A DNA stretch of 64,000 nt from Faecalibacterium taiwanense (lineage in GTDB: Bacteria; Bacillota; Clostridia; Oscillospirales; Ruminococcaceae), in NCBI RefSeq assembly GCF_036632915.2, contig NZ_CP155552.1, positions 1,674,001 through 1,738,000 of the forward strand, written 5' to 3'. The notes under the pieces were generated by a model, which did no database searches, was not told the DNA's origin, and saw nothing but the letters and a program-made list of their open reading frames with translations. Positions 42,360 through 63,547 of this stretch are shown in pieces. Numbering within the stretch: the first letter of the stretch is position 1; each line of letters begins with the position of its first letter. The position numbers and the translations under genes are program-made.

Positions 42360-42437
42360 ACAATCTGCTCCTTTCATTCGGGCAGCATGGCGCTGCCTGG
42401 CGTTCTTTGCAAATAGATGCAAATAATAGCTTTATCT

Positions 42438-42466
42438 ATTATCGGATTTTTTGCCTCAGATGTCAA
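42438..42466 (-). promoter_or_regulatory. Promoter of the sepF operon
   Basis: A perfect TTGACA (42461-42466) and GATAAT (42438-42443) are 17 bases apart on the minus strand, about 80 bases before sepF and immediately after the stop of the HlyD-like gene. Confidence 0.85.
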
Positions 42467-42469
42467 TAA

Positions 42470-43783: not shown

Positions 43784-43788
43784 ATCGA

Positions 43789-44733
43789 TCATCCTTTCGC
43801 TAAAAATTCGCTAGTTTTGCGGATGGCAGTCTGCACTGCATCCGGTGCACCGGCATCCAGCCAGACCACATCGTCCATATGGCGGAACCAGGTCAACTGG
43901 CGCTTGGCATAGTTGCGGGATGCCTGCTTGAGCTTTTCCGTGCAGGCTTCCAGTGGAGCTGTCTGCTCAAAATACGGAAAGAACTCCTTGTATCCGATGG
44001 CCTGCGCTGCCGTGCGGAAGCTTTCCCGGTTCTGCCAGACATGCTCCGCTTCCTTTATAAGGCCCGCTTCCAGCATTTTGTCCACACGCAGGTCAATGCG
44101 GCGGTAAAGTACCGCGCGCTCTGGGAAATCCAGACCGAGGATCAGGCTGCGGTAGGGCCGCTCCGGTGGGAGAGACTCCGCCTTCTGTTCGCTCAGCTTT
44201 TTGCCGGTGGCACGATAATGTTCGAGTGCGCGCAGCACCCGCACCTGATTGTTCGGGTGGATAGCCGCAGCAGCTTCCGGGTCGGCCTGCTTCAGTTCTT
44301 CGTACATGGCAGCACCGCCTTTTGCAGCCAGTTCCGCCGCCAGTTGCTCCCGCAGACCGGCAGGTGCTTTTTCCTCTGTAAAGCGCACCCCATACAGAAA
44401 GCTCTGAACATACAGCCCTGTGCCGCCCACAAGGATGGGCAGCTTCTTCCGGGCAGAGATCTCTTCTTCCAGCTTTCCGGCCATGGCGGTAAAGTCTGCC
44501 ACGCTGAAAGCCTTGTCCGGTGTAAGGATGTCCACGCCGTGATGCGGGATACCGCAGGTCTCCTCCGGTGTCACCTTTGCCGTGCCTATGTCCAGACCTT
44601 TATAGATCTGCATGGAATCACAGCTGATGACCTCGCCGGAAAAATGTTTTGCAAGTTCTACGCCCAGCGCTGTCTTTCCGGTTGCGGTAGGGCCGACGAC
44701 GGCCACCACGGGATGTTTATACGATGCGTCCAA
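43789..44733 (-). CDS. miaA: tRNA dimethylallyltransferase MiaA
   Basis: Adds an isopentenyl group to A37 of tRNAs reading U-starting codons. The 314 residues include the P-loop GPTATGKTALG near residue 13, SCDSMQIY and the GGTGLYVQ segment. It appears to start at a TTG at 44733 inside the mutL 3' end. With miaB in the same cluster, both steps of ms2i6A37 synthesis are encoded within 8 kb. Confidence 0.95.
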   Translation of the reverse strand: MDASYKHPVVAVVGPTATGKTALGVELAKHFSGEVISCDSMQIYKGLDIGTAKVTPEETCGIPHHGVDILTPDKAFSVADFTAMAGKLEEEISARKKLPILVGGTGLYVQSFLYGVRFTEEKAPAGLREQLAAELAAKGGAAMYEELKQADPEAAAAIHPNNQVRVLRALEHYRATGKKLSEQKAESLPPERPYRSLILGLDFPERAVLYRRIDLRVDKMLEAGLIKEAEHVWQNRESFRTAAQAIGYKEFFPYFEQTAPLEACTEKLKQASRNYAKRQLTWFRHMDDVVWLDAGAPDAVQTAIRKTSEFLAKG

Positions 44734-46858: not shown

Positions 46859-46901
46859 GGTGTTTTCCCTCCTTGTATGGTCTGGGTCAGGTAGAGCAGT
46901 T

Positions 46902-49517
46902 TCATCTGTTCAGGCTGCCCTTCAGGGTCTTTTTCAGCTCGTAGAGGAAGTTCAAAGCCTCAATGGGGGTGAGTGTTTCCACATCCAGAGCTTCCAGCTT
47001 GTCCATCATCTCGCTGGGCACAGCCGGAGAGTTATACTCCTGCAGGGCATCAAAATCCATCTGCTCTACTTTATTTTTAGGTGCAGTTGCTTCCAGCGCG
47101 CGCAGCACCTCATGGGCGCGGCGGGTCACACTGCCGGGCAGGCCTGCCAGCTTTGCCACCTCGATGCCGTAGCTGTCATCCGCCGGGCCGCGCACGATGC
47201 GGCGCAGGAAGGTGATGTCCTCGCCGCGTTTTTTTACTGCAATATTGTAGTTTTTTACGCCGTCCACGCCGCCTTCCAGCTCGGTCAGCTCGTGGTAGTG
47301 GGTGGCAAACAGAGTCTTGCAGCCAAGGCCCTTGGCGGGGTCTGCAATGTGCTCCACTACGGCGCGGGCAATGCTCATACCGTCAAAGGTGGAAGTGCCG
47401 CGGCCGATCTCGTCCAGCACCACAAGGCTTTTGGCGGTGGCATTTTTCAGGATCTCCGCTACCTCGGTCATCTCCACCATAAAGGTGGACTGACCGGCAG
47501 ACAGGTCGTCCGACGCACCGATGCGAGTGAAAATGGCATCCACCACACCCACATGGCAGCTGGAAGCCGGTACAAAGGAGCCGATCTGCGCCATCAGCGC
47601 GATCAGTGCATTCTGGCGCATGTACGTGGATTTACCTGCCATGTTGGGGCCGGTGATGATCAGGCAGCGGTCTGCACCACAGTTCAGGGTGGTATCATTG
47701 GGTACAAACAGGCTGCCTTTCAGCATCTGCTCCACCACAGGGTGACGGCCCTCGGTGATGGTCAGCTCGTCACTGTCGTCCACGATGGGACGGCAGTAGT
47801 TGTTTTCCGCTGCCACCTGCGCCAGCGCCGTGAGCACATCCAGCTGGGCCACCGCATTGGCCGTGCGCTGGATGCGGTCCAGCTGAGCGCTGATGCTTTC
47901 CAGCAGTTCGCTGAACAGGCGGTGCTCCAGCGTGATGAGCCGTTCGTGGGCACCTAAGATCTTGCTCTCCAGCTCTTTCAGTTCCTGCGTGATGTAGCGT
48001 TCGCCGGAAGTCAGGGTCTGCTTGCGGATGTAAGTCTCCGGCACCATGCTCTTATAGGAGTTGCTTACCTCGATGAAGTAGCCAAACACATGGTTATAGC
48101 CGATCTTCAGCTTGGGGATGCCGGTCTCCTGCCGCAGGCGGGCTTCCAGCTGCGCCAGAACGCCCTTGGTATTGTCGCGGATGGAACGCAGCTCGTCCAC
48201 CTCGGCATGGTAGCCTTTGGCAATGACACCGCCATCCTTGAGGGTAGAGGGCGCTTCCGGGTCCACCGCCGCATAAATACGGGCCTTGATGTCCTCCAAC
48301 GGATCGATCTGTACTGCCAGTTCAGCAAGCTCCGGGCAGCCGCAGGCCTCAGCCAGCCTGCGCAGGCCGGGCAGCCGGTCGCAGGTCTGGGCCAGCGTAT
48401 AGATCTCCTTGGGTGTGGCAGAGCCGTAAACCGTGCGGGTCATCAGGCGTTCCATATCCGCAATGTAACCCAGCTCTTCGGTCAGGTCGCCGCGGGCCAT
48501 GGTCTGCTTGACAAGGCTCTCCACAGCGTTCAGGCGGTGGTTGATGAGTGCACTGGAAATAAGCGGCTGCTCGATCCAGCTGCGCAGCATACGCTTGCCC
48601 ATGGATGTACTGGTCTTATCCAGCACCCAGAGCAGCGTGCCCCGCTTTTCGCGGCCGCGCAGCGTCTCGGTCAGCTCCAGATTGGCGCGGGTCACGGGCG
48701 AAAGACGCATGAACTGGGCCTTATTATAGGTTATGACCGTTTTCAGACGTTCCACGCCCTTGATCTGGGTATCGTGCAGATATTCCAGCAGTGCCGCCAT
48801 GGCAAAGCGCACAAGGCCGTCCGCTGCAATGCCGGTGGTCTGCGCCCAGTCGCGGCCAAACTGGTTTTCCAGCGATGCCGCCACAAGGCCCGGTGCATAG
48901 CGCTCCTCTTCGATCAGCTCCACCGAACAAGTCATATTCTTTTTGATGTACGCCGTCACCTCGCGGCAGTCCAGCAGACCCGGATTCATCAGTACTTCGC
49001 TGGGATGGTAGCGGCACAGCTCCGTAATGACCGCCGGGGCGATCTTGTCTGCATTCAGCTCTGTGATATGGGCCGTACCGGTAGAGACATCCGCAAAGCA
49101 CAAACCTGCTTTCTTTCCTTTGAGGAAGATACTGGCAATGTAGTTATTGCGGTCATCCTGCAGCATACTGCTCTCAATGACCGTGCCGGGTGTGACCACG
49201 CGGATGATGTCCCGCTTGACAAGGCCCTTGGCCTTGGCCGGGTCTTCCACCTGCTCACAGATGGCTACTTTGTAGCCCTTGGCGATCAGCCGCGCCACAT
49301 ATCCCTCGTAGCTGTGGAAGGGCACGCCGCACATGGGCGCTCGCTCTTCCATGCCGCACTGCTTGCCGGTCAGGGTCAGGTCCAGTTCCTTGGATGCCGT
49401 CAGGGCATCGTCAAAGAACATCTCATAAAAATCGCCGATGCGGTAAAACAGAATTTCGTCCTTATGTTGTTTTTTGATCTCAAGATATTGCTGCATCATG
49501 GGCGACAGCTCTGCCAT
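46902..49517 (-). CDS. mutS: DNA mismatch repair protein MutS
   Basis: Mismatch recognition ATPase of 871 residues. The Phe-x-Glu mismatch-binding motif occurs in GDFYEMFFDDA near residue 30, the P-loop GPNMAGKST near 620 and VLDEIGRGTSTFDG near 700. The ATG follows GAGAGGG. It precedes mutL by 43 bases and lies downstream of ricA across a hairpin. Confidence 0.98.
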   Translation of the reverse strand: MAELSPMMQQYLEIKKQHKDEILFYRIGDFYEMFFDDALTASKELDLTLTGKQCGMEERAPMCGVPFHSYEGYVARLIAKGYKVAICEQVEDPAKAKGLVKRDIIRVVTPGTVIESSMLQDDRNNYIASIFLKGKKAGLCFADVSTGTAHITELNADKIAPAVITELCRYHPSEVLMNPGLLDCREVTAYIKKNMTCSVELIEEERYAPGLVAASLENQFGRDWAQTTGIAADGLVRFAMAALLEYLHDTQIKGVERLKTVITYNKAQFMRLSPVTRANLELTETLRGREKRGTLLWVLDKTSTSMGKRMLRSWIEQPLISSALINHRLNAVESLVKQTMARGDLTEELGYIADMERLMTRTVYGSATPKEIYTLAQTCDRLPGLRRLAEACGCPELAELAVQIDPLEDIKARIYAAVDPEAPSTLKDGGVIAKGYHAEVDELRSIRDNTKGVLAQLEARLRQETGIPKLKIGYNHVFGYFIEVSNSYKSMVPETYIRKQTLTSGERYITQELKELESKILGAHERLITLEHRLFSELLESISAQLDRIQRTANAVAQLDVLTALAQVAAENNYCRPIVDDSDELTITEGRHPVVEQMLKGSLFVPNDTTLNCGADRCLIITGPNMAGKSTYMRQNALIALMAQIGSFVPASSCHVGVVDAIFTRIGASDDLSAGQSTFMVEMTEVAEILKNATAKSLVVLDEIGRGTSTFDGMSIARAVVEHIADPAKGLGCKTLFATHYHELTELEGGVDGVKNYNIAVKKRGEDITFLRRIVRGPADDSYGIEVAKLAGLPGSVTRRAHEVLRALEATAPKNKVEQMDFDALQEYNSPAVPSEMMDKLEALDVETLTPIEALNFLYELKKTLKGSLNR

Positions 49518-49580
49518 GGTTTACCCTCTCTCCCGTTCTATGGTTCTGTGCACAAGTTTGCGGCTTGTAACCGCTTTTGC

Positions 49581-49620
49581 AAACAAAACGCGGTCTGTTT
49601 TGCACAGCCGCGTTTTGTTT
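49581..49620. terminator. 13-bp inverted repeat between ricA and mutS
   Basis: Bases 49581-49593 and 49608-49620 are perfect reverse complements ending in TTTTGTTT. It lies just after ricA on the minus strand. As there is no further T run it may only partly terminate. Confidence 0.65.
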
Positions 49621-49629
49621 TTGCCGGTT

Positions 49630-50037
49630 TTAGTGGCAGCCGCCGCAGGTGGAGCAGCTGCCGGTGCAGGAAGCAGAAGGCTCCTGTACCGTCATGGGGT
49701 CGCCGCCATTCATGGCAGTGTTGATGATGGCATCGATATAGTTCACGAGGTTCTCGCAGTCACGCTTGGCCTCGTTGTAAGCCACCATGCCCTCGTTGCC
49801 CATGATCTGGCCGTACAGGCTGTTCACCTTTTCGTTCAGTTCGGCGATGCGGGCATCGTTGCGCTCGCTCTTGCCGATCTCATTGTTCAGATCCATGCGG
49901 GCGAGGTTGAACTCGCCGATCAGGTTCTGCAGCTCTTCGTCCTTATCGTTTGCCTTGCGGGTCTGATCCAGAACGAGGTAGCGGCTATCGGTCTGCAGCG
50001 CAACGGCTGCGCGCTTGAAAAGATCAATGCAATCCAT
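49630..50037 (-). CDS. YlbF/YmcA-family (RicA-like) protein with Cys-rich tail
   Basis: A helical 135-residue protein starting MDCIDLFKRAAVALQTD, matching the YlbF/YmcA family; Bacillus members form the RicAFT complex with iron-sulfur clusters, which affects RNase Y and biofilm and sporulation control. The tail CTGSCSTCGGCH has four cysteines and a histidine, suited to cluster or metal binding. It lies between miaB and mutS, as ymcA does in Bacillus. Confidence 0.82.
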   Translation of the reverse strand: MDCIDLFKRAAVALQTDSRYLVLDQTRKANDKDEELQNLIGEFNLARMDLNNEIGKSERNDARIAELNEKVNSLYGQIMGNEGMVAYNEAKRDCENLVNYIDAIINTAMNGGDPMTVQEPSASCTGSCSTCGGCH

Positions 50038-50089
50038 TTGAATGGTCTCCTTCTTATTTATACGTTCAGGGGCACTGCCCCGGAATCAC

Positions 50090-51469
50090 TCAGGCAAGCT
50101 CACCCAGCAGCACAGTCGCCCGTGCGCCCGTGAGATGTACGTTGGCATAGCTGCCCATCAGGGAAGCATCTGCCGTGAACTCCACCGTCAGGTTGTTGTC
50201 CAGACGGCCGGAGAGGGTGCCCTCATTGCGGCCAAAGCCCTCTACCAGTACCTTCACAGTCTGGCCAACCTGCGCCTTGACCAGCGCCATGGCGATCTCG
50301 TCCTGCAGCTTGAGCAGGCGGGTCATGCGGTCGGTCTTTTCCTTGCGGGGGGTGGGGTCCGGCATATCGGCGGCCTTGGTGCCGGTGCGCTTGGAGTAGA
50401 TAAAGGTGAACAGCTGCATATAGCCCACCTTCTGCACCAGTTCCAGCGTCTTTACAAAGTCTGCTTCGGTCTCGCCGGGGAAGCCAACGATGATGTCACT
50501 GGAAAAGGTGATGCCGGGCACCGTTTTGCGAGCGTATTCGATCAGCTCCATGTACTGCTCCACCGTGTAGTGGCGGTTCATCTTCTTCAGCAGTTCATCG
50601 GAGCCGCACTGCACCGGCAGGTGCAGGTGCTTGCACAGCTTCGGCTGGGCGGCAATGGTGTCGATCAGCTTGTGGCTGGCATCCTTGGGGTGGCTGGTCA
50701 TAAAGCGGATGTGATAATCGCCGGGCACCGTGCACAGCAGGTTGAGCAGATCAGAAAAGTCCACCTTTTCTTCCAGACCCTTGCCGTAGCTGTTGACGTT
50801 CTGTCCCAGCAATGTGATCTCCTTATAGCCTGCCTCCACAAGACCGCGGAACTCGGCAAGGATATCGCCGGGCTTGCGGCTCTTCTCGCGGCCGCGCACA
50901 TAAGGCACGATGCAGTAGGTGCAGAAGTTGTCGCAGCCGTACATGATGGGCAGCCATGCGCGGAACTCGCTCTCACGCCGGATGGGGATATTCTCCACGA
51001 TGACCGGGCGCTGGGCGGGCTCCATCAGCACACGCTTATGCTTCTGCAGCTTCTGGGCAATGAGCTGCGGCAGGGTGTCGATGCCGTCCACGCCAAACAC
51101 AAGGTCAACGTAAGGATAGCTCTGGCGCAGCTTTTCTACCACGTGCTTCTGGTTGGCCATGCATCCGCACAGGCCGATGATGAGATCATGCTTTTTTTCC
51201 TTAAGTCCCTTCAGGGCACCTACGTTGCCGAACACACGCTGCTCGGCATGCTCACGCACGGCGCAGGTGTTGAAGAGGATCAGGTCTGCATCCTCGGGCT
51301 TATCGCACAGGCCATAGCCGATGTCCATCAGCACGCCCTTGATCCGCTCGCCGTCGTTCACGTTCTGCTGACAGCCATAGCTGTGCACAAAGGCCAGCGG
51401 CGGCGTATCATAGAACTGCTTTACCAGCTCAGCGGCAATGTTATTATGTTCAAAACTAATGTATTCCAA
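50090..51469 (-). CDS. miaB: tRNA-2-methylthio-N6-dimethylallyladenosine synthase MiaB
   Basis: Radical SAM methylthiotransferase acting on tRNA A37 after MiaA. The 459 residues contain the N-terminal cluster cysteines (HSYGCQQN, FNTCAVRE, GLCGCMAN), the radical SAM motif CDNFCTYC near residue 165 and a C-terminal TRAM domain. It begins at a TTG at 51469 after GAAGGA. Confidence 0.97.
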   Translation of the reverse strand: MEYISFEHNNIAAELVKQFYDTPPLAFVHSYGCQQNVNDGERIKGVLMDIGYGLCDKPEDADLILFNTCAVREHAEQRVFGNVGALKGLKEKKHDLIIGLCGCMANQKHVVEKLRQSYPYVDLVFGVDGIDTLPQLIAQKLQKHKRVLMEPAQRPVIVENIPIRRESEFRAWLPIMYGCDNFCTYCIVPYVRGREKSRKPGDILAEFRGLVEAGYKEITLLGQNVNSYGKGLEEKVDFSDLLNLLCTVPGDYHIRFMTSHPKDASHKLIDTIAAQPKLCKHLHLPVQCGSDELLKKMNRHYTVEQYMELIEYARKTVPGITFSSDIIVGFPGETEADFVKTLELVQKVGYMQLFTFIYSKRTGTKAADMPDPTPRKEKTDRMTRLLKLQDEIAMALVKAQVGQTVKVLVEGFGRNEGTLSGRLDNNLTVEFTADASLMGSYANVHLTGARATVLLGELA

Positions 51470-51550
51470 TCAAACCATCCTTCTCCGCCGGGCCGAAGCG
51501 CCCTGTGCGGCGAAAATCTACTTGCACTTTCTGAAAAGAGCCTTCTCTAT

Positions 51551-51579
51551 AGTATACCCTGTTTATACGCTCCGGGCAA
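51551..51579 (-). promoter_or_regulatory. Promoter of miaB
   Basis: TTGCCC (51574-51579) and TATACT (51551-51556) are 17 bases apart on the minus strand, about 80 bases before miaB. Confidence 0.65.
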
Positions 51580-51603
51580 GAGGTTCCGTGCAAATTTTAT
51601 GGT

Positions 51604-51996
51604 TCAGTGGGCGTTTTCCTGCGCCTGCTTCTCGCAGCAGGCCTCGCATACGCCGATCAGCACAACAGCGCAGTCCTGCACATGGCCCTTCTGGTTTTTC
51701 ACCAGCTTCATTACCTGCTTTTCGTCCACCTCGGCATCGGTCACGCTGCCGCACACAGTGCAGTACAGATGGCTGTGCCAGGGCAGCGTGTGGTCAAAGC
51801 GGTCAGCCTTGCCTGGAATGGACACCCGGCGCACCCGGCCCGCATCCACCAGACTATTCAGGTTACGGTATACGGTGCCAAGGCTCAGGCCCGGGCATTC
51901 CTTGACCGCAGCATCATAAATTTCCTCGGCGGTGGGGTGGTCGCACAGGTTCTGCACCGTCTGCATGACCAGCTCACGCTGTTTGGAATATCGCAT
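51604..51996 (-). CDS. perR: Fur-family regulator, PerR-like
   Basis: A 130-residue regulator with an N-terminal winged helix (SLGTVYRNLNSLVDAG) and two zinc-binding CxxC pairs (CTVCG, CEACC). The metal-site segment DRFDHTLPWHSHLYC keeps the Asp and the two His residues that in PerR bind iron and are oxidised by peroxide. PerR is preferred to Fur or Zur on this ground. It lies 39 bases after rarA. Confidence 0.82.
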   Translation of the reverse strand: MRYSKQRELVMQTVQNLCDHPTAEEIYDAAVKECPGLSLGTVYRNLNSLVDAGRVRRVSIPGKADRFDHTLPWHSHLYCTVCGSVTDAEVDEKQVMKLVKNQKGHVQDCAVVLIGVCEACCEKQAQENAH

Positions 51997-52035
51997 AACT
52001 TCTCCTTTGCTTTCTCCTCATACAAAAGGTCTTGT

Positions 52036-53310
52036 TCAGACGTTCTCTTCGCCCTTGATCTTTGCCCAGTAGGCACGGGCCGCCTGCTCATTTTTGTTAT
52101 CGCCAAAGGTATAATATTTTACGTCCTTGATGGCATCTGGCAGGTACTGCTGCTCCACCCAGTGGTGGGCGTAATCATGGGCGTATTTGTAATTCTGTCC
52201 CTTTACCAGCGCATCCTCACCGTCGTAGTGCTTGTTCTGCAGTTGGCGCGGGATCGGCCCGGTACGGCCCGCCTGCACATCCGCAATGGCCGCGTTGATG
52301 GCATCATGGGCACTGTTGGACTTAGGACTGGTGGCCACCAGAATGACGGCATCTGCCAGCGGGAGCCGTGCTTCCGGCAGGCCCACCATGTTGGCGGCAT
52401 CAATTGCCGCCTTCACAATGGGGATGATCTGTGGATAGGCAAGGCCCACATCCTCGCAGGCACATACCATTAGGCGACGGCAGGCCGAGGGCAGATCTCC
52501 TGCTTCCAGCAGACGGGCCAGATAATGCAGCGCCGCATCCGGGTCGGAGCCGCGCATGGACTTCTGGTAGGCTGACACGATGTCGTAGTGGTCATCGCCC
52601 TCCCGGTCATACCGCATGGCAGTGCGGCGGGTGACCTGCTGGATCATTTCCAGCGTAATGTGCTTTTCCCCATCCTCAATGGGAGCTGCCGTCACCGCAA
52701 AATCAAGACAGCCCAGCGCCTTGCGCAGGTCGCCGCCTGCGCTCTCGGCAAGGTAGGCACAGGCATCCTCATCCATGCAGACCTTTGTGCTCTCCCCTTC
52801 CGAAAGCTTTTTCAGTGCATTGTGCACCCCACGCTCCACATCCGCTGCCGAAAGTGATTTGAACTCAAACACCGTGCAGCGGGACAGCAGCGCATTATAA
52901 ATGTAGAAGTATGGATTTTCGGTGGTGGATGCAATGAGCGTCACCGAGCCGTCCTCAATGCATTCCAGCAGGCTCTGCTGCTGTTTTTTGTTCAGGTACT
53001 GGATCTCGTCCAGATACAGCAGGATGCCTCCCGCACCTGCCAGCGTGCCGATATCCTTGAGCACCGCCTTGATGTCCCCGGTGCCGCAGGAAGTGCCATT
53101 GAGCTTATGCAGCGTCATACCGCTGTTTTCTGCAATGATGCGTGCCACCGTCGTTTTTCCGGTACCGGACGGGCCGTAGAAGATCATGTTCGGGATGCGT
53201 CCGCTCTCGATGGTACGGCGGAACACCCTGCCCGGTGCCAACAGATGCTGCTGACCGCAGACATCTGCCAGTGTTTTGGGCCGCAGACGCTGTGCCAGTG
53301 GTTCGTTCAT
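52036..53310 (-). CDS. rarA: Replication-associated recombination protein RarA (MgsA)
   Basis: AAA+ ATPase acting at stalled forks. The 424 residues contain YGPSGTGKTT near residue 46, Walker B LYLDEIQYL and the typical C-terminal domain (YDREGDDHYDIVSAYQKSMRGSDPDAALHY core). The ATG at 53310 follows GGAGGA. It is divergent from nth. Confidence 0.95.
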   Translation of the reverse strand: MNEPLAQRLRPKTLADVCGQQHLLAPGRVFRRTIESGRIPNMIFYGPSGTGKTTVARIIAENSGMTLHKLNGTSCGTGDIKAVLKDIGTLAGAGGILLYLDEIQYLNKKQQQSLLECIEDGSVTLIASTTENPYFYIYNALLSRCTVFEFKSLSAADVERGVHNALKKLSEGESTKVCMDEDACAYLAESAGGDLRKALGCLDFAVTAAPIEDGEKHITLEMIQQVTRRTAMRYDREGDDHYDIVSAYQKSMRGSDPDAALHYLARLLEAGDLPSACRRLMVCACEDVGLAYPQIIPIVKAAIDAANMVGLPEARLPLADAVILVATSPKSNSAHDAINAAIADVQAGRTGPIPRQLQNKHYDGEDALVKGQNYKYAHDYAHHWVEQQYLPDAIKDVKYYTFGDNKNEQAARAYWAKIKGEENV

Positions 53311-53361
53311 CGTGTTTTCCTCCTCCCGTACCGAGGCGCGATTCCCCCAGCATTTTTCTAT

Positions 53362-53390
53362 AGTATATCGCATTTTGGCAGTAAGAGCAA
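53362..53390 (-). promoter_or_regulatory. Promoter of rarA
   Basis: TTGCTC (53385-53390) and TATACT (53362-53367) are 17 bases apart on the minus strand. Confidence 0.7.
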
Positions 53391-53432
53391 GGTTTTATCT
53401 GAAAATCATTCTCAGATAATTTTTGCTCGCAG

Positions 53433-53461
53433 TTTACAAAAAACGCAAAACATGGTATTAT
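53433..53461 (+). promoter_or_regulatory. Promoter of nth
   Basis: TTTACA (53433-53438) and TATTAT (53456-53461) are 17 bases apart, 32 bases before the nth start. Confidence 0.75.
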
Positions 53462-53493
53462 CGTATCAGCTTTTGTCGATAGGAGTGGATGAA

Positions 53494-54183
53494 ATGCCTG
53501 TTCGCAAAAAAGCACCAGAAGACCTTACTGCAAAAAAGGCGCTGGCGCTGGAAGTGATCGACCGGTTAAAAAAAGAATACCCAGATGCCGGCTGTACATT
53601 GGATTATGACCACGCCTGGCAGCTTCTGGTCAGCGTGCGTCTGGCAGCCCAGTGCACCGATGCCCGCGTGAACATTGTGGTGGAAGACCTGTTTGCTAAA
53701 TATCCCAATGTTGCTGCGCTGGCTGCTGCAGAACCCGAAGACATTGAAGCCATCGTCAAGCCCTGCGGGTTGGGACACTCCAAAGCGCGGGATATCTCCG
53801 CCTGTATGCGGGTGCTGCGCGATAAATACGGTTGTCAGGTGCCCACCACCTTTGAAGAGCTGCTCGCCCTGCCCGGCGTAGGCCGCAAGAGCGCAAACCT
53901 TATCATGGGCGATGTGTTTGGCAAGCCTGCTATCGTAACAGACACCCACTGCATCCGGCTGTGCAACAAGATCGGCCTTGTGGACGGCATCAAGGAACCG
54001 CAGAAGGTGGAAATGGCCCTGTGGAAGATCGTTCCTCCGGAAGAAGGCAGCGACCTGTGCCACCGCTTTGTGATGCATGGTCGGGCAGTGTGCAATGCGC
54101 GCAAACCAGAATGCGAAAAATGTTGTTTGAAGGATATTTGCCGCTTTGCCCGGGAAAACGCCGGGCAGAGCGCAGAGCTTTAA
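53494..54183 (+). CDS. nth: Endonuclease III
   Basis: DNA glycosylase/AP lyase for oxidised pyrimidines. The 229 residues have the HhH motif LPGVGRKSANL with the catalytic Lys near residue 133, the catalytic Asp in VTDTHC, and a C-terminal 4Fe-4S loop with spacing C-x6-C-x2-C-x5-C. The ATG at 53494 follows AGGAG; the frame extends upstream into rarA antisense sequence without support. Confidence 0.96.
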   Translation: MPVRKKAPEDLTAKKALALEVIDRLKKEYPDAGCTLDYDHAWQLLVSVRLAAQCTDARVNIVVEDLFAKYPNVAALAAAEPEDIEAIVKPCGLGHSKARDISACMRVLRDKYGCQVPTTFEELLALPGVGRKSANLIMGDVFGKPAIVTDTHCIRLCNKIGLVDGIKEPQKVEMALWKIVPPEEGSDLCHRFVMHGRAVCNARKPECEKCCLKDICRFARENAGQSAEL

Positions 54184-54203
54184 AATTCAGGAGGTAGAAT
54201 ATT

Positions 54204-54443
54204 ATGTTTGGTTTTATTTTCAGTCTGCTGATCGGCGCTCTGGCTGGTTACATCGCCGGCCGCATTATGGGCAGCGAAACTTCCACCGTGCGCAATATCG
54301 TGCTGGGCATTCTGGGCGGTTTTGTAGGCAGCATCGTGTTCGGCCTGATCGGTCTGAGCGCTACCGGCATCGTGGGTGAGATCCTCGTTTCCGTTGTGGG
54401 TGCCTGCATCTGCATCTGGATCGGCCGTAAGCTGTTCAACTGA
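54204..54443 (+). CDS. GlsB/YeaQ/YmgE-family stress-associated membrane protein
   Basis: A 79-residue protein with three glycine-rich membrane helices and the family pattern GALAGYIAGRIMG and LGILGGFVGS. The ATG follows AGGAGG. Such proteins (formerly transglycosylase-associated) are often stress-induced; function is unclear. It lies 20 bases after nth and may share its transcript. Confidence 0.88.
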   Translation: MFGFIFSLLIGALAGYIAGRIMGSETSTVRNIVLGILGGFVGSIVFGLIGLSATGIVGEILVSVVGACICIWIGRKLFN

Positions 54444-54543
54444 TTTTTCTTGTGTGCAAGGCTGCTCTTCGAGTTTTTCTCGGAGGGCAGTTATATTTTT
54501 GCGTCACAGACTATTTGCACCTGTTCTGCCGCAAAATCAAATC

Positions 54544-54572
54544 TTGACAGCGCACAGGAAGTATGATAGAAT
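54544..54572 (+). promoter_or_regulatory. Promoter of tRNA-Thr
   Basis: A perfect TTGACA (54544-54549) and TAGAAT (54567-54572) are 17 bases apart, 36 bases before the tRNA. Confidence 0.85.
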
Positions 54573-54608
54573 ATCTCTCGTTGCAGAACATGCAAGAAAA
54601 TTTTATCT

Positions 54609-54684
54609 GCTACTGTGGCTCAGCTGGTAGAGCAGCTCACTCGTAATGAGCAGGTCGCCTGTTCGAATCAGGTCAGTAGCTCCA
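54609..54684 (+). tRNA. tRNA-Thr (anticodon CGU)
   Basis: A 76-base tRNA including encoded CCA. The acceptor stem is GCTACTG/CAGTAGC, the D arm GCTC...GAGC, the anticodon stem GCTCA/TGAGC with loop CTCGTAA (anticodon CGU, reading ACG), and the T loop TTCGAAT. Confidence 0.95.
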
Positions 54685-54738
54685 AAAATCCTACGAATTT
54701 ACGTTTAGAATCGTAATTTCGTGGGATTTTTTTATTTA
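54685..54738 (+). terminator. Terminator of tRNA-Thr
   Basis: A 14-bp stem (AAAAATCC.ACGAA with TTCGTGGGATTTTT, one wobble) encloses a smaller TTACG/CGTAA hairpin and ends in seven T residues. Confidence 0.85.
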
Positions 54739-54895
54739 GTCTCGCAAGTTTTCGCAAAACCGCAACATCGCCCACAAAACAAGACAAAATAAAACGCCCC
54801 GTGACACCATTTCATAGGGCGTTATACGCATTTTTATGCTTTCTTGGGGACAGGCTCCTTGAGTTCACAATGTAGGTTTGTCAATGATGAGTTGG
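54739..54895. other. Intergenic stretch after tRNA-Thr with a possible gene remnant
   Basis: Non-coding. It contains an AACGCCC/GGGCGTT hairpin (about 54793-54823). On the minus strand, 54834-54882 reads as a short frame ending LHCELKEPVPKKA and a TAA, which looks like the end of a lost gene. No integrase or transposase is seen. Confidence 0.35.
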
Positions 54896-57844
54896 TCACA
54901 GGATCTTGCGCAGCTCCTGCACAAGGTCGCCGATCACGATGGGTTTGGACAAAAAGCCGGTCATGCCGCTTTCCAAGGCATTGCGGCGGTCTTCATCGAA
55001 TGCGTTGGCAGTCATGGCAAGGATCGGGATCTTTGCCAGTGCAGGGTCGGCCAGTGCGCGGATCTGCCGGGTGGCGGTATAGCCGTCCATCACCGGCATC
55101 TGCACATCCATCAGCACCAGATCATAGCTGCCCGGTGAGGCAGTGCTTACCTTTTCCACCGCCACGGCACCGTTTTCCGCCGTATCGACCCGGAAGCCGT
55201 ACTCCCGCAGGATCTCCTGCGCGATCTCACGGTTCAGCTCGTTGTCCTCTACCAGCAGGATGTGCCTGCCCTTGAAGTTGGTGCTCTTTTTCGGCAGAAG
55301 CTCCTGCGCCGCATCCGTCTGTGTCTGGCCGATGGCGTTCATCAGGGTCTCGCGCAGGTCGGACATGAACATGGGCTTGGAGCAGAAGGCGGTCACACCG
55401 GCAGCCTTTGCCTCCACCTCAATGTCGGACCAGTCGTAGGCAGTCAGGATGATGATGGGCGTATCATTGTTCAGGCTGCGGATCTGGCGGGTGACTTCGA
55501 TGCCGTTCATATCCGGCAAGCGCCAGTCGATGATATAGGCATGGTAAGCATCGCTCATCTCGATGGACTGCCGTGCACGCAGCACCGCTTCCTTGCCGGA
55601 AAGGGTCCACTCGGCACGCATGCCCACCTTGACCAGCATCTTTGTCACGCTGTCGCAGGTGTTGAAATCGTCATCCACCACCAGTGCCTTCAGGCCTTCC
55701 AGTTCGGTGATCTTTTCCACCGGACGGTGCTCTGCCTGCGCACGCATGGGCACACGAATGATAAACTCGCTGCCCTTGCCCTGCGCCGTCTGCACCTCGA
55801 TGGTGCCGCCCATCATATCCACGATGTTTTTGGTAATAGCCATGCCAAGGCCGGTGCCCTGGATCCGGCTTACCGTGGAGGTGCGCTCCCGCTCAAACGG
55901 CTCAAAAATCTTTTTGGCGAACTCTTGGCTCATGCCGATGCCGTTGTCCTTGACGCGGAACTCGTACTGCCCGCAGCCGCGCACCGCTCCGGCAAGCTGC
56001 CGCACCCGCACCGAGACCGTGCCGCCCGCCGGGGTGAACTTGATGGCGTTGGACAGCAGGTTCAGCAGTACCTGATTCAGCCGGGTCTTATCGCAGTAGA
56101 CGTCCTCATCGGTCACATCCATGGCATCCATATAAAGCTCCAGCTGCTTTGCGTAGATCTGCCCGCTGACGATGGTTTTCAGGTCGTGCAGCACATCCGA
56201 AAGGTTGACTTCCACTTCTTCCAGATGGATCTTTCCGCTTTCGATGCGGCTCATATCCAGCACATCGTTGATGAGGGAAAGTAGATGATTGCTGGAAGCG
56301 AGGGTCTTGGCAAGATAATCCTTCACCCGGTCTTTATCGTCAATGTTGCTGAGTGCCAGCGTGGTAAAGCCGATGATGGCGTTCATGGGGGTGCGGATGT
56401 CGTGGGACATATTGGAAAGGAAGGTGCTTTTGGCGCGGTTGGCAGTCTCGGCCGCTGCAACGGCATCCGAAAGTGCCTGATTCACCTGCCTGTCGGCGGT
56501 GCGGTCGGACAAGACAAGGATATACTTGGTCCTGCCCTCTACCTCGCTGCCCATGGCGATGTTATGGAACCAGCGCCGCTCTTTGGTCTCCCGATGCTCA
56601 AACTCGAAATCCCATTCGCGTTGCTGCCCGCTGAGCAGTCCTTCCAGAAAGTTCTTGTCGCGATCCGGGTCATCCTTCGGGTGCAGCGCTGCCAGAGCAC
56701 GGGCATCCTGCCGCACTTCTTTCCACGGGATGCCCAGCAGCCGTTCGACGTTGGGGCTGACATAATCCACCTTGGAGGTCTTTGCGTCCAGCATCAGGAA
56801 AACGTCGTCCACGTTCAGCGAAAGCTTTTGGAACAGCTCGTCCCGGTACAGGATCTCAGTGTCCTTCCGGCGCAGGGTCGTATGGCTTCTGCGCAGGATC
56901 AGCAGGATGATCAGCACAGCAAGGCCAAAGGCGATGCCCGCCACGATCTGCACCGTGTGGAACCACAGCTTATCCAGACTGGCATTGACGATGCTGACCG
57001 GCACAAGCCCCACCATCGTCCAGTTCTGGACCGCGGTATCCTCGTAGACCAGATAATAACTGGTGTCGCCCAGTTTGACCCGCAGGTTTCCGCTGCGGCC
57101 CTGCGCAAAATCATCCGAAAGGGCAAGAATCTGTTCCTCGGAAAGGTCGGAATGGTCGCGCAGCATCGCAATGAAGTTGTAAATAATTTCCTTGCGGTTT
57201 ACGGAATTGTCAATCACCACCCGCCCATCCGGGTAGATCACATAGTTGCTGGCATTGCCCTGAAAAGCAGAGCTGTCCAGCAATCTCAGCACAGCATCAT
57301 TATAATAGGTGATGGCAACGGCATCGTAGGCAAAGCCCCGGTAGCTGCCCTGCGTTTCGGGGCAGATGAACGCAAGCATCGGGGCTTTGCCGGGCAGCGC
57401 CGTATTCACGACGATATCCTCGCCATCGGAGAGCTTTTCGTCCAGATTGGTCTGCAGGCCAAGGTAGCCGGTTTCCCCGGTCACGGTCGTGTAGTTGCCG
57501 TCATAGGAAAGAAAGTAGAAGTTAACAAATCCGGTTGCCTGCTGTGCTTACTCGATATAGGCCTGAATTTCATCCTCATTCGAGGTGTTTTTCAGAAAGC
57601 CGTTGCACAGATGCAGATAGGTCATGTTTTTGCGCACCATCTCTTTCAGCATACTATTGGATTTATACAGCACCTCTTCCAGATGCGAGGTGCTTTCCTG
57701 ATAGATGGTCTGCGACATAAACGAGATGTACCGGACGCTGAAACCGGCTGCCAGAAAGACCAAAAGAAGGATGGCAGCGGCGGCAGGCAGCCACTTGTGC
57801 CGGGAATAGCAGCTGTGTTTGGATTCGTGCTTTTCGTCTGCCAT
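54896..57844 (-). pseudogene. Hybrid sensor histidine kinase with two receiver domains, interrupted by an in-frame TAA
   Basis: The full frame of 983 codons starts at the ATG at 57844 (GAGGTGA site), 5 bases after the lipoprotein gene. Order: membrane helix (about 18-40), extracytoplasmic Cache-like sensor domain, second helix (about 295), PAS domain (about 330-460), HisKA with [16 protein letters not shown] near 478, HATPase (DNGIGMS, GTGLGMAITKN), receiver 1 (Asp in IIDWRLPD, near 773) and receiver 2 (Asp in LMDVQMP, near 911). Codon 99 (57548-57550) is TAA; the frame continues unchanged on both sides (EIQAYIE, then AQQATGFVNF). Downstream a GTG at 57484 could start a product lacking the first helix. 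No HPt domain is present. Confidence 0.85.
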
Positions 57845-57849
57845 TCCGC

Positions 57850-59712
57850 TCACCTCAGTGTCATGTAGTTTTCCGGCTCTGCAAGCGCTGCGCCGCCGGA
57901 GATATAATCGCGCCATGTGTTCTTTACCCACGTATCTTCGCCCACAGACGTGCCGCTATCGCTCGCAAGCAGCGCTTCCATCTGCTTTTCCGTTGCAAGG
58001 CAGGTCACGGTAACGGTGTCGTTATCTCCCAGTGGCTGCCCGTTCCGGGTGATGCCGGTCAGGGTATAGCTGCCGTTATTCTCTTTTACCTCCACAGCAA
58101 TGCCGCTGACCACTGGCAGAGAACCACGGTTGAAGGGCACAAACCCGCCCTCGCAGCCTTCCACAAAGGCGTGGACGGTCTCTTTCAGCTCCGCACCGGT
58201 CATGGTGCGCTGGCGGGACATCAGACCGTTCGGCATGATCATGGAAGCTGCCATTTTCTGGTTATAATCCGCCTGCAGCACACTGCCGGTAAAGCTGTTT
58301 GCGGTGGCAAGCAGTACATCCGTGCCATACACGCCGCGCAGCGTGTTTGCCATCACGGAGAAGGAAGCGCTGCCGCCGTTTGCGTGGAATACGTTGGAAT
58401 AGGCCTTCCCGGAGGTCAGCACGGTCTCGTTGTCGGCAGGCTCCTCATCGGCAAGGAGCTGGGCATTGAAGGCCTGATACGCCTGCTCAGCGGTAAGCTC
58501 GCCTGCGATCATTTTGGAGACCACATCCTTGGAAACGGCAAAGAAATCGTTGGAGGCGATGCGGATATACATGTGGTTTTCTTCCACCACGCTGCGGACG
58601 TCCTTCAGATACTCGGTCAGGCGCAGGGGAACGTTCTGGCTGTAGCTCAGTATGTCCTGCCCCTCCGAGACGATGCGGTTCTGCGCCTGTTCGGAGAGCA
58701 TGACGTTCAGCACCTTCATGGCTTTTTCGCGGCGCGTGGTGTCCTGCTCCAGATCCCGGTTCAGGGCAACTTGGAAATAGGGGGTGGTCATGATCCACGG
58801 TTCGCTGTTCTGGCTGAAGAAGGGCAGAAAGATCGTGTCGATGCCCTCATCCTGAAACATCTTCACGCCGGCAGAGCTGCCAAAGTACATGGCAACTTCT
58901 CCGTTCCGGAACATTCCGGTCACATCGTCGTAATTCAACGCAAGATCATCTGCTGTAAGGTGGGTATCCTGAATGAACTGCTCCATCCGCTCAAACGCCC
59001 CCGGCCATACGGTGTCGTCCAGACCCACCCGCGCGGTGCTGGCGGGGGCGCTGTAGGTAGTGCGCCACTTGCGCCCCGCGGTGGTGGTAAGCTCGGCAGC
59101 GGAAAGCCCCTGCAGGGTTTCCATGCAGGTGTAGTCGTAGGTATAATCGGAGGTAAAGCCGCAGATGCCTACCTTTTCAAAAGCCTGACAGGCAGCTGCA
59201 AAGCTTGCGTAATCGGTAGGCAGGGGAATATCGTACTGCTCAAAAAGGCTGCGGTTGACCACAAAGCCGTGGGCATCCGCGCACACCGGCAGCCAGTTCA
59301 CACTGCCATCCTCGTTTTTGAAGCTGTTGAGGTAGGTGTTGTACACAGCGCCCGCCTCATTGGTCATGGCAAGGTTCATCAGGCTGTCCTTCAACGGTGC
59401 CGCATCGTGCAGCGAGAAGCGGCAGCAGGTGATGATATCCGGCAGACCGCCGTTCTGCTGCAAAAACTTGTAAAAATCCAGATCGTTGTTGCCTACGATG
59501 AATTCAATGTTCACGTCCGGCAGCTGCGCCTGAACATAGGGCGCATAGTTTTCGTACAGGCTGGTGCTCCACAGATACACCTGAATAGTCTGAGCGTCTT
59601 CCTGCTCCTGTGTTCGTTCCGCATTTTTTTCGCTGCATCCGGTGAGCAGGGATAGCCCCATCACCAGTGCCGCAAGCATGGAAAATAGGCGGCGCAATGT
59701 TTTTGTTTTCAT
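57850..59712 (-). CDS. Lipoprotein: solute-binding domain fused to a 5'-nucleotidase-C-like domain
   Basis: About 620 residues from the ATG at 59712 (GGAG site). A lipoprotein signal ends in LLTGC near residue 27. Residues 45 to about 420 resemble a family-1 extracellular solute-binding protein (QTIQVYLWSTSLYENYAPYV, GEVAMYFGSSAGVKMFQ, TRREKAMKVLNVMLSE). The C-terminal 170 residues resemble the 5'-nucleotidase C-terminal domain (DVLLATANSFTGSV, MPNGLMSRQRTMTGAELKE, LPVVSGIAVEV). The metal-binding phosphoesterase domain that normally precedes it is absent. No permease or ATPase genes are near; the next gene is a hybrid kinase 5 bases away. It is therefore more likely a ligand receptor for that kinase than a transport component. 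Confidence 0.75.
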   Translation of the reverse strand: MKTKTLRRLFSMLAALVMGLSLLTGCSEKNAERTQEQEDAQTIQVYLWSTSLYENYAPYVQAQLPDVNIEFIVGNNDLDFYKFLQQNGGLPDIITCCRFSLHDAAPLKDSLMNLAMTNEAGAVYNTYLNSFKNEDGSVNWLPVCADAHGFVVNRSLFEQYDIPLPTDYASFAAACQAFEKVGICGFTSDYTYDYTCMETLQGLSAAELTTTAGRKWRTTYSAPASTARVGLDDTVWPGAFERMEQFIQDTHLTADDLALNYDDVTGMFRNGEVAMYFGSSAGVKMFQDEGIDTIFLPFFSQNSEPWIMTTPYFQVALNRDLEQDTTRREKAMKVLNVMLSEQAQNRIVSEGQDILSYSQNVPLRLTEYLKDVRSVVEENHMYIRIASNDFFAVSKDVVSKMIAGELTAEQAYQAFNAQLLADEEPADNETVLTSGKAYSNVFHANGGSASFSVMANTLRGVYGTDVLLATANSFTGSVLQADYNQKMAASMIMPNGLMSRQRTMTGAELKETVHAFVEGCEGGFVPFNRGSLPVVSGIAVEVKENNGSYTLTGITRNGQPLGDNDTVTVTCLATEKQMEALLASDSGTSVGEDTWVKNTWRDYISGGAALAEPENYMTLR

Positions 59713-60154: not shown

Positions 60155-62730
60155 TTATTTCAGTACATCTGCAAGGACCTGCAGCAGGTGCGGAATATCC
60201 AGCGGCTTTGCAATATGGCCGTTCATACCGGCCTTCAGTGCGTTCTGACGGTCTTCCTCAAAGGCATTTGCCGTCATTGCAAAGATGGGGATGCCAGCCT
60301 TTGCGGCATCCGGCAGCGCACGAATCTGCCGCGTTGCCTCGTAGCCGTCCATGTTGGGCATCTGGATGTCCATGAGGATCAGGTCATACTGTCCGTCTGC
60401 CGCCTGCTTCATCTTCCGGACGGCGATCTCGCCATCCTCGGCAGATTCCACCTCAAAGCCCGCTTCCTTCAGGATCTCCACTGCGATCTCACGGTTCAGC
60501 TCGTTGTCCTCCACCAGCAGGATCTTTTTCCCTTTGAAGGCCTCCGCGTTCAGCTGCACCGGCCTGCAGGCAGGCTCTGCACCGAACGGCTCTGCCAGCA
60601 CTCTGCGCAGCTCCGAGAGGAACAGCGGCTTTTCACAGAAGGCGGTAACACCGGCCGCACGGGCTTCCTCTTCAATATCGGCCCAGTCGTAGGCGGTCAG
60701 GATGATGATGGGGCGGCTTTTTCCAATCACCTTGCGGATCTGCCGCACGATCTCGATGCCGTTCATATCGGGGATCAGCCAGTCGATGATGTAAACGCTG
60801 AATTCATCCCCCTGCTCCATGGCATACCGGGTGCGGATCACCGCTTCCCTGCCGGAGATCGTCCACTCCGGCCGCATCCCGATCTTGGACAGCATGGTGC
60901 TGACGCTCAGGCAGGTGTCGGTATCGTCGTCCGCCACCAGTGCCCGCAGCCCTTCCAGCTGCGGGAGCTGCCTGAGCTCCACCTTTTGTCCGCTGAGCGC
61001 AAAGCAGAGATTCACGATAAACTCGCTGCCCTTGCCCGGCTCGCTCTCAATGGCGATGGTGCCGCCCATCAGGTCCACAATGTTCTTGGTGATGGACATG
61101 CCGAGGCCGGTACCCTGAATGCCGCTGACGGTGGAGTTTTCCTCACGGGCGAACTCCTCAAAGATGTGCTTCTGGAATTCCTCACTCATGCCGATGCCGT
61201 TGTCCTTGATGCGGAACTCATAGCAGGCCCGGCCCGCAGGCGCACCGTTTTTCTCAGCAATGCGAATGCTGATCATGCCACCTGTGGGAGTGAACTTGAT
61301 GGCATTGGACAAAATGTTCAGCAGGATCTGGTTCAGCCGCAGCGGGTCGGTGATGATATCCTCGTTCTCCACATCTATGGTATCAATAAAAAGCGACAGC
61401 CGCTTTGCCGAAACATTGGGCTGAATGATGGAGCGCACATCGTGGACGAGGTCCGGCAGATGCACCGCTTTTTCCTCGATCTTTACCTTTCCGCTCTCGA
61501 TGCGGCTCATATCCAGCACATCATTGATGAGGGAAAGCAGATGCTGGCTGGAGGTGGAGATCTTTTTGAGGTAGTCCAGCACCTGTTCCCTATTGTCGAT
61601 ATGGGTCGCAGCCAGCGAAGTGAAGCCGATGATGGCGTTCATGGGGGTGCGGAAATCGTGGCTCATATTGAACAGGAACTCCCGCTTGGCGCGGTTTGCC
61701 GCCCCTCGTGCTGAAGCGCGATCTCCAGCTTGCGGTTCTGTTCCTCCAGCTGGGTCTGGTACTTCCTCTCCTGCTCTTTTTTCTGCAGCTCCATCTCCTG
61801 CGCGGAGCGGCGGCGCAGCAGCTGAAGGATCATTACAAGCAGGATGTAGCCGACCAGAACCGTCAGGATCAGCAAAAGCGCCTCCCGGAAGATTATTTTT
61901 TCATCCGTGTACGCATAGAGATCGAAGGATCTGCCATGGCAGAACATCCCGAAATAGCAGCCGGAGCCGTTCCAGTCCCGGGTATGGGTCAGCTTCTCTG
62001 CGGCCCCGGCTTTGCGGATCCCCTGCGCCAGCGGACTGCCTGCAACATCCTGCCCAATCAGCTCCGGGCGGTTTGCGGCAACGACCTGATTGTTCTGCAC
62101 GATGAACAGCGTGCCGCTGGTTTCTGCCGGGTAGCCATCCAGTATGCTCTGGATGGACAGCGCCGTTTCCTCCACAAATTCCGCCGGGGTGTACCGGTAG
62201 GCAAGCAGGAGCAGCTCTGTGCTTTCTGCCCGGTGTGCCGCAACATCCACAGCAGAGCCATCTTCCAGCAGGACGCGCTTCACATAGGTCTTTCGCGGGT
62301 AAGATAAAACGTCTAGAACAGCGTCATTTTTCAGCTGGTCGCCAAATCGGTCATAGCCGATGCCGTTGGTCGTGGACTCGCACCGGAGCGTGCCATCCGG
62401 TCCCAGAACCGAAATGCCGGTGAGCCAGAGCTTTTCTGTCTGCCTGTTCAGGCACTGCGGGTCGGAGAGGTCAAGCGCAGGATTCTCTGCCAGCTGATGG
62501 GCTGCGACCGCCGTGCGGCGGAGTGCCTTTGCCGTGATGGTATCGTTGTGCTTTTCAAAGCTGGTGGACTGGGATTTGACAAACTCAAGGGTCTGGCAAA
62601 AGCGTTCCTCTGCTGTGCGCATTGCCCGCCAGCTGGAGAAAAAAGCAACACCGGCCATCAAGAGCACGCCGATGATCAGATAGGCTGTCCATATCCTTTT
62701 ATCCGGGGTGGTTCTGTTTTTACGCGCCAA
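60155..62730 (-). pseudogene. Second hybrid sensor histidine kinase with two receiver domains, frameshifted
   Basis: Starts at a TTG at 62730 with GGAGG 9 bases upstream and overlaps the binding-protein stop. The first part (to 61663) has two membrane helices around an extracytoplasmic sensor region (about 38-290) and a coiled coil. In the C run at 61702-61705 the frame is lost; the expected sequence continues as [20 protein letters not shown] in another frame. As read, the first product ends at 61663 and a new ATG at 61666 (ATGA) would begin at the H-box. The second part has HisKA, HATPase ([18 protein letters not shown]) and two receivers (Asp in IIDWLIPD and LMDIQMP). It is a paralogue of the kinase at 54896-57844. 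No HPt domain is present. Confidence 0.83.
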
Positions 62731-63547
62731 TTATGTCCACCTCCAGATACTGCGAAGCATTTTCAAGGTATCGGCCAATGATCCGCTCCAGCGTGCCATC
62801 CGCGCGCATCTGCGCAAGGGTATCGGTCAGCTGGCTGTCCAGCCCGCGGGTGTCGTTCTTGGCAAAGGCGATGCCCAGCCCGGTGACCAGCAGCGGTTCC
62901 TCCAAAATGCGGAAGTCTACGGCATTGTCCTTCATATATTGCAGGATGCCTGTCTCGTGGGCGGCGATGCCGTCCACATAGCCGCAGGCCAGCATTGCGT
63001 ACTGCACACTGCGGTTTTCGATGCTGAGCACCTCCACCGTCTGCGGGATGCGCGGGTCGGAGCCGCTGAGAAAGATCTCTTCCGGCTTGCCGGTGCTCTG
63101 CACGGCGACGGTCTTGCCGGCAAGGTCGCTAAGGGATCGGATGCTGCTGTCGGCATCCACCGCAACCACCTGACGGCTCACCATGTAAGGCCCCGCCCAG
63201 CGGTATACCTCTTCGCGTCCATCCATGGAAAAGCAGCCCCAGATGCAGTCGATGGCGCCGCTTTCCACAAGATTTGTTTTCTGCTCCCAGTTGATCGTTT
63301 CAAACCGGGCAGCATACCCCATGCGGCGGAACGCCTCGGTGGCGATCTCCACATCGATTCCGGTGGGAACACCGTCATTATTCAGATAGATATAAGGTGG
63401 ATAGCTGTCGCTTCCCACAACGATTTGTGCAAGACCGCTGTCTTTCGCTTCCTTTTCTCCGCAGGAAGTCAGACTGCTTACGGCAGCAGCTGCCGCCAGC
63501 AGCGTGCATCCGTTCAGGAATGCACGGCGTGAGATTCTGTGTTTCAT
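62720..63547 (-). CDS. Family-3 extracellular solute-binding lipoprotein
   Basis: A 275-residue protein with a twin-arginine-like start (SRRAF) and a lipobox (LTSC) near residue 29, followed by the amino-acid-type binding fold (IVVGSDSYPPYIYLNNDGVPTG, GIDVEIATEAFRRMGY, LAGKTVAVQSTGK). No ABC permease or ATPase gene is adjacent; the gene overlaps the second hybrid kinase by 11 bases. This suggests a sensor role, as in BvgS-type systems where such domains are fused to the kinase. The ATG has AGGAG 14 bases upstream, a long spacing. Confidence 0.85.
   Translation of the reverse strand: MKHRISRRAFLNGCTLLAAAAAVSSLTSCGEKEAKDSGLAQIVVGSDSYPPYIYLNNDGVPTGIDVEIATEAFRRMGYAARFETINWEQKTNLVESGAIDCIWGCFSMDGREEVYRWAGPYMVSRQVVAVDADSSIRSLSDLAGKTVAVQSTGKPEEIFLSGSDPRIPQTVEVLSIENRSVQYAMLACGYVDGIAAHETGILQYMKDNAVDFRILEEPLLVTGLGIAFAKNDTRGLDSQLTDTLAQMRADGTLERIIGRYLENASQYLEVDIIGA

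Follow-up and report, generated by a model that had tools for sequence, protein, structure and literature searches.

A solute-binding lipoprotein with a 5'-nucleotidase-C-like domain beside a hybrid sensor kinase in Faecalibacterium taiwanense

Introduction

The window analysed here is a 64-kb stretch (64,000 nucleotides) of the Faecalibacterium taiwanense genome, which is a single contig of 2.96 Mb. On its minus strand, the gene SBP-A (57850..59712) encodes a 620-aa lipoprotein that joins a solute-binding domain to a domain resembling the C-terminal domain of 5'-nucleotidases, and a hybrid kinase gene follows it. This arrangement raises the question of whether SBP-A belongs to an importer or to a sensor, and what a nucleotidase-type domain does on a binding protein. 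The accessible part of one account describes the activation of sensor kinases by binding proteins as a general mechanism, with only about ten characterised sensor-kinase cases (PMC9602780), and the accessible part of another names LuxP and TorT as such binding proteins (PMC5908839).

Results

The SBP-A frame starts at an ATG preceded by an AGGAG-like site recognised by eye, and its signal peptide (59635..59712, minus strand), read from the translation and extending to the cysteine of the LTGC lipobox, provides a predicted lipoprotein anchor. The lipobox pattern was present in 30 of the 41 rows of the SBP-A alignment; of the other 11, seven are matches starting past the signal peptide and four have a variant residue before the cysteine. 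Pfam assigned the solute-binding domain (residues ~38-425) to SBP_bac_8 (E 1.2e-10) and SBP_bac_1 (E 1.6e-8), each over the cut-off, in agreement with the lipobox-bearing, family-1 binding-protein-like frame recognised in the sequence-only reading. No other Pfam family matched SBP-A at E up to 1, and NCBIfam gave no useful name. The same reading had noted the lack of a phosphoesterase catalytic domain; Pfam likewise detected no phosphoesterase family in SBP-A, and the solute-binding families occupy the place of the N-terminal metallophosphoesterase domain. The nearest named relative, from Faecalibacterium sp. I4-3-84, was 95% identical. A fold search with the full-length model returned a list of binding proteins only, in which the predicted N domain resembled importer subunits. 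As this list was filled by one domain, the C domain was modelled separately.

The C-terminal domain (residues ~427-620, 194 aa, coding stretch 57853..58434, minus strand) was not matched by PF02872 (5_nucleotid_C) in SBP-A itself even at E up to 10, and among the matches listed, none of 120 close relatives of the SBP-A type carried a precomputed PF02872 entry. To align these proteins, we prepared alignment A1 from 40 of 50 relatives' loci plus the window protein, omitting loci with a broken or joined frame (L011, L028, L039, L047, L051, and L052), partial copies (L043 and L048), and near-identical copies (L008 and L042), and alignment A2 from 35 of the 40 A1 loci plus the window protein and eight rows of a second fusion type, here called B-type. 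At E up to 10, PF02872 matched 21 of 41 full-length relatives (best 2.1e-5); with the C domains taken in isolation and a limit of E 1, it matched 36 of 44 (best 4.2e-12). PF02872 scores exceeded the cut-off for the paralogue in this genome (47.1 bits) and for two relatives (39.8 and 43.7 bits). Among the 120 B-type matches listed of 1420, 112 carried PF02872, and in 50 of those listed, counted by eye, it occurred together with a solute-binding family; some B-type relatives are automatically named '5'-nucleotidase C-terminal domain-containing protein'. A PDB sequence search with the C-domain profile reached UshA at E 1.1 only. The predicted structure of the C domain gave an unambiguous match to the 5_nucleotid_C fold, which appeared fully kept in the model. 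The assignment is thus made because of the more distant relatives, the profile comparison and the fold, and not by Pfam on SBP-A alone. The earlier proposal that the C-terminal part resembles a 5'-nucleotidase C domain therefore stands on an unambiguous fold match and on profile homology, and SBP-A is a genuine two-domain fusion as well as a lipoprotein.

The adjacent hybrid kinase gene, K1 (54896..57844, minus strand), starts with an ATG at 57844, five bases past the SBP-A stop, exactly as the earlier reading had placed it. Its product has a putative dCache-like sensor, a PAS domain, HisKA, HATPase and two receiver domains. HisKA, HATPase and the receivers were found by Pfam in K1 and its relatives; dCache_1 matched below the Pfam cut-off, in the kinases of four relatives only (E 0.0053 to 5.4e-9), and the membrane segments were recognised by eye. 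In NCBIfam, K1 came closest to two hybrid kinases, TorS and LuxQ, both far under their cut-offs.

At 37 of 50 loci drawn from a species-representative collection, a K1-orthologous kinase (~49-96% identity; some truncated at contig ends, and that of L026 in two frames) follows SBP-A, either directly or behind a B-type fusion gene. Genera with the fusion and the kinase include Faecalibacterium, Gemmiger, Agathobaculum, Blautia, Coprococcus, and Anaerobutyricum. The intervening B-type gene was found at eight of the 37 loci (L029, L031-L034, L040, L044, and L053); such tandem A-type then B-type fusions before one kinase could indicate a receptor that is heteromeric or has two ligands. The downstream kinase was missing at 13 loci. 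Four of these reach the contig end (L043, L049, L051, and L052), at L045 a related kinase lies upstream and a fusion of the third type downstream, L018 has only a receiver remnant in the kinase place, and at L025 GGDEF and receiver-EAL-GGDEF genes come after SBP-A. At the remaining six (L017, L023, L028, L037, L039, and L041) there was no kinase downstream, with a kinase core on the opposite strand at L039 and an HD-GYP-like fragment, recognised by eye, at L023. L011, L028, L047, L051, and L052 have a disruption in the SBP-A frame itself.

SBP-A might instead be an ordinary importer subunit, that is, an orphan ABC binding protein for an unlinked sugar permease, with the kinase as a neighbour that regulates expression. 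The N-domain model resembles such subunits, some relatives are automatically named 'extracellular solute-binding protein', and the genome holds 30 matches to the permease domain PF00528. None of these lies in the 64-kb window, however, the nearest being ~115 kb off. Among the 50 loci, a tblastn search with 26 own-genome permease domains as queries found a permease in the locus DNA analysed at one (L040), where it belongs to a unit that includes a separate SBP_bac_3 and an ATPase, against a conserved kinase neighbour at 37. Moreover, the additional C domain, about one third of the protein, lies outside the listed importer structures, whose matches to SBP-A end by residue 428. We therefore regard the importer explanation as quite improbable. 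The absence of a nearby ABC permease, already remarked on from the letters of the window, thus extends to the relatives apart from L040; among them the same two-domain order occurs beside hybrid kinases, and a consistent association with permeases was not obtained. Because a sensor kinase and not a transporter adjoins the gene in many related gut bacteria, SBP-A most likely forms the extracellular half of a signalling receptor.

Pairs of an SBP_bac_3 protein and a hybrid kinase occurred near the module at 12 of the 50 loci. The window likewise has an SBP_bac_3 lipoprotein gene (62720..63547, minus strand) adjoining a second hybrid kinase gene, HK2 (60155..62730, minus strand), the next kinase gene upstream of SBP-A. 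At L012 (13113-16022), beside the two-protein version, a neighbouring hybrid kinase carries SBP_bac_3 domains as an N-terminal fusion.

Three fusion-kinase units are present in the genome, two of them with lesions. The B-type fusion shows 36-37% identity to SBP-A over nearly the whole length; its own-genome copy (2909966-2911704) is frameshifted and is followed by a frameshifted kinase (fusion and kinase region, L089 4961-9423) and then by a GGDEF-receiver-HD protein. The third, diverged fusion, immediately right of the window (L088 14091-15878), is intact and 595 aa long, with PF02872 below the cut-off (E 0.0076); the hybrid kinase that comes after it (L088 11759-14155) is likewise intact and has 798 aa. 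Some of the clusters to which close relatives of this third fusion belong comprise thousands of member sequences.

A match to SBP-A at E 1e-20 was present in 11 of 31 genus genomes and in 3 of 148 class-sample genomes, the own genome being counted in both; the gene is therefore accessory. In the tree, a nine-row group (support 100/100), of which eight rows are labelled Lachnospiraceae, joins a seven-row side of Faecalibacterium, Gemmiger, Agathobaculum, and Pseudoflavonifractor to form a 16-row group (100/100). The fork of these four genera had a support of only 92/38, and three other Oscillospiraceae rows stand apart from the 16-row group. This topology of the SBP-A tree would fit transfer between gut families. 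Among plasmids there was one record, with a 46% partial match. Copies at L011 and L049 lie on contigs labelled Collinsella and Eggerthellaceae, reflecting either transfer or a binning error.

The enzyme reference set for the nucleotide pocket consisted of C domains from 15 of 19 fetched loci, aligned with hhalign after the four without a GNH(E/D) motif were dropped; two of the 15 domains come from one protein. According to the accessible part of the UshA literature, the base is stacked between Phe429 and Phe498, and enzyme C domains have their own substrate site (PMC7922932). In the larger alignment, with the 15 enzyme domains as reference, the Phe429 column was aromatic (Phe or Tyr) in 14 of the 15 enzyme domains, but in none of 36 A-type and none of eight B-type fusions, where it holds Asn (36/36 A-type) or Asn, Ser or Gly (8/8 B-type). 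The smaller alignment, with two own-genome enzymes as reference, gave Asn in 41 of 41 A-type sequences. The Arg410 column holds Thr or Ser in all 41 A-type sequences, although Thr also occupies this column in one of the two own-genome enzymes. The residues in the Phe498 column depended on the alignment: no A-, B- or C-type sequence was aromatic there with the two reference enzymes, and 14 of 36 A-type and all eight B-type sequences were aromatic with the 15 enzyme domains. A loss of both stacking aromatics, considered at one stage, was accordingly withdrawn for Phe498, as the column had shifted. Since the aromatic residue at Phe429 is lost, at least one side of the classical base sandwich is missing, and judged from the alignments the C domain, besides having no enzyme partner, has probably lost at least part of the nucleobase pocket. 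Because the Phe429 position is never aromatic in the fusions, the nucleoside-like ligand named in the sequence-only reading is unsupported, and a nucleoside receptor was rejected as the leading reading on the same column (0/44 fusions aromatic).

These columns also bear on a dual-ligand receptor, in which a sugar would be sensed by the binding-protein domain and another small molecule, nucleoside-like or not, by a second, separate site retained in the C domain, giving the kinase two simultaneous signals. The substrate site reported for enzyme C domains, the fold that appears fully kept in the model, and the aromatic residues at Phe498 in the larger alignment speak for such a receptor. The Phe429 column, the Arg410 column with the reservation just given, and the lack of any aromatic residue at Phe498 in the smaller alignment speak against it, and we consider it unlikely. 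A more elaborate version, in which the sugar-binding and the former nucleotidase domains bind different ligands and one hybrid kinase reads their combined state, together with that of a tandem B-type fusion, into c-di-GMP, seems a long shot; if it were true, gut Clostridia would detect two cues jointly, a polysaccharide product and another metabolite.

No output domain besides the two receivers was found in K1. The single Hpt match in the genome is a stand-alone 115-aa protein (L107 4437-4784), and the genome also has receiver-containing GGDEF/HD proteins (by Pfam; in L108 by eye). At L010, the K1-type sensor domain recurs on an adjacent GGDEF protein (phmmer E 7.9e-30 in a five-sequence search; blastp 2.4e-23). 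A phosphorelay from K1 to c-di-GMP enzymes may be proposed from these genes. The lone Hpt protein may serve several hybrid kinases as a common hub.

We compared the evolutionary distances of the two SBP-A domains with those of the kinase sensor in 27 pairs. The partial r was 0.40 for the N domain and 0.23 for the C domain, and the kinase PAS region, used as a control, correlated as well or better. The comparison either leans against the C domain as the kinase contact or is uninformative.

The K1 frame in this genome, in a way that had gone unnoticed in the sequence-only reading, is interrupted by an in-frame TAA (57548-57550) at codon 99, which severs the first membrane segment, recognised by eye, from the rest. 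HK2 is frameshifted near 61700 into 355- and 503-aa frames, with one base deleted in comparison with a copy from the same species whose frame runs to ~890 codons. With the frameshifts in the B-type fusion and its kinase, the genome has four receptor-gene lesions. The flank 42000-50000 is 99% identical to the same-species genome G175 (L005), with one 3-base indel, and 50000-54893 differs from L005 by one 1-base and one 12-base indel. Because the flanks are near-identical to the same species, base errors of the assembly look rare, although an error at the K1 or HK2 lesion is possible. The segment 54906-60051, containing SBP-A and K1, is inverted relative to L005 7651-12810, with sharp ends, one of which sits at the last codons of K1. 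No inverted repeats were found at the breakpoints, and therefore we do not claim an invertible switch.

The lesions and the inversion would suit a decaying gene, that is, a receptor locus on its way out whose protein has no present function in this strain, an explanation compatible with the others. The SBP-A frame, however, is intact, and its dN/dS (NG86) against the L005 copy was 0.25 (N domain 0.24, C domain 0.29), and both domains have been under selection. The part of K1 past the stop gave 0.19 (residues 100-330) and 0.20 (330 to the end), and the first 98 codons, a short stretch with few changes, gave 0.82. Decay here would also say nothing about the relatives, in which the kinase was uninterrupted in eight of eight checked. 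We consider the absence of function rather improbable; as SBP-A is intact with a dN/dS of ~0.25 and K1 past the stop has ~0.2, any loss is recent. The pathway has probably been broken recently in this strain, and because its partner kinase is interrupted, the receptor may not work here.

Discussion

We think it somewhat probable that SBP-A and the K1-type kinase form a two-protein sensor, with SBP-A as the extracytoplasmic receptor that binds a solute, docks, and alters the kinase. The membrane-anchored lipoprotein would bind a solute, most likely an oligosaccharide, in the cleft of its family-1 binding-protein domain, and the loaded protein would dock on the dCache-like outer domain of the downstream hybrid kinase and change its activity, by a logic like that of LuxP/LuxQ and TorT/TorS. 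A K1-type kinase with HisKA, HATPase and two receivers would pass phosphate to the single Hpt protein, which in turn may pass it on to receiver-linked c-di-GMP enzymes. The C domain might now serve as a coupling or docking module between the binding protein and the kinase, a role that we put forward tentatively.

SBP-A/K1 shares the pairing of an extracytoplasmic binding protein with a sensor kinase with LuxP-LuxQ, TorT-TorS, AioX-AioS, and BctC-BctE. LuxP and TorT belong to a different binding-protein family, whereas SBP-A, a predicted lipoprotein, is of the SBP_bac_1/8 families and additionally bears a 5'-nucleotidase-C domain. Unlike the 5'-nucleotidases UshA, NadN, and CD73, which have this C-terminal domain, it lacks the metallophosphoesterase domain, and the aromatic residue at the Phe429 position is lost in 44 of 44 fusions. 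Unlike the family-1 oligosaccharide-binding proteins of ABC importers (3quf, MsmE, and RafE), it has no linked permease, an extra C domain, and a kinase neighbour. The thiosulfohydrolase SoxB, unlike SBP-A, is an enzyme with a catalytic domain; by analogy it hints that the 5'-nucleotidase-C fold may serve non-nucleotide partners.

Of the surface receptor that was to present its ligand to the kinase, the fusion, the lipoprotein and the hybrid-kinase association have held up, and the nucleoside-like ligand has not. The design had also been taken as one not described. The partnership of binding protein and sensor kinase is a known mechanism, as the accessible parts of two accounts state (PMC9602780, PMC5908839), but we found no paper on a solute-binding/5'-nucleotidase-C fusion in literature searches that covered mainly openly available papers. 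The novelty is the 5'-nucleotidase-C domain on a kinase-linked binding protein, with PF02872 already annotated automatically on B-type proteins.

A domain that determines substrate specificity in enzymes has thus moved onto a solute-binding protein and, in several gut clostridial families, been kept beside a sensor kinase, not a transporter. Should the C domain be a docking or second-ligand module, it would offer a concrete element for explaining communication between binding proteins and kinases. These results suggest that receptors are among the proteins of Faecalibacterium, Gemmiger, and Blautia catalogued as importer subunits under the name 'extracellular solute-binding protein'.
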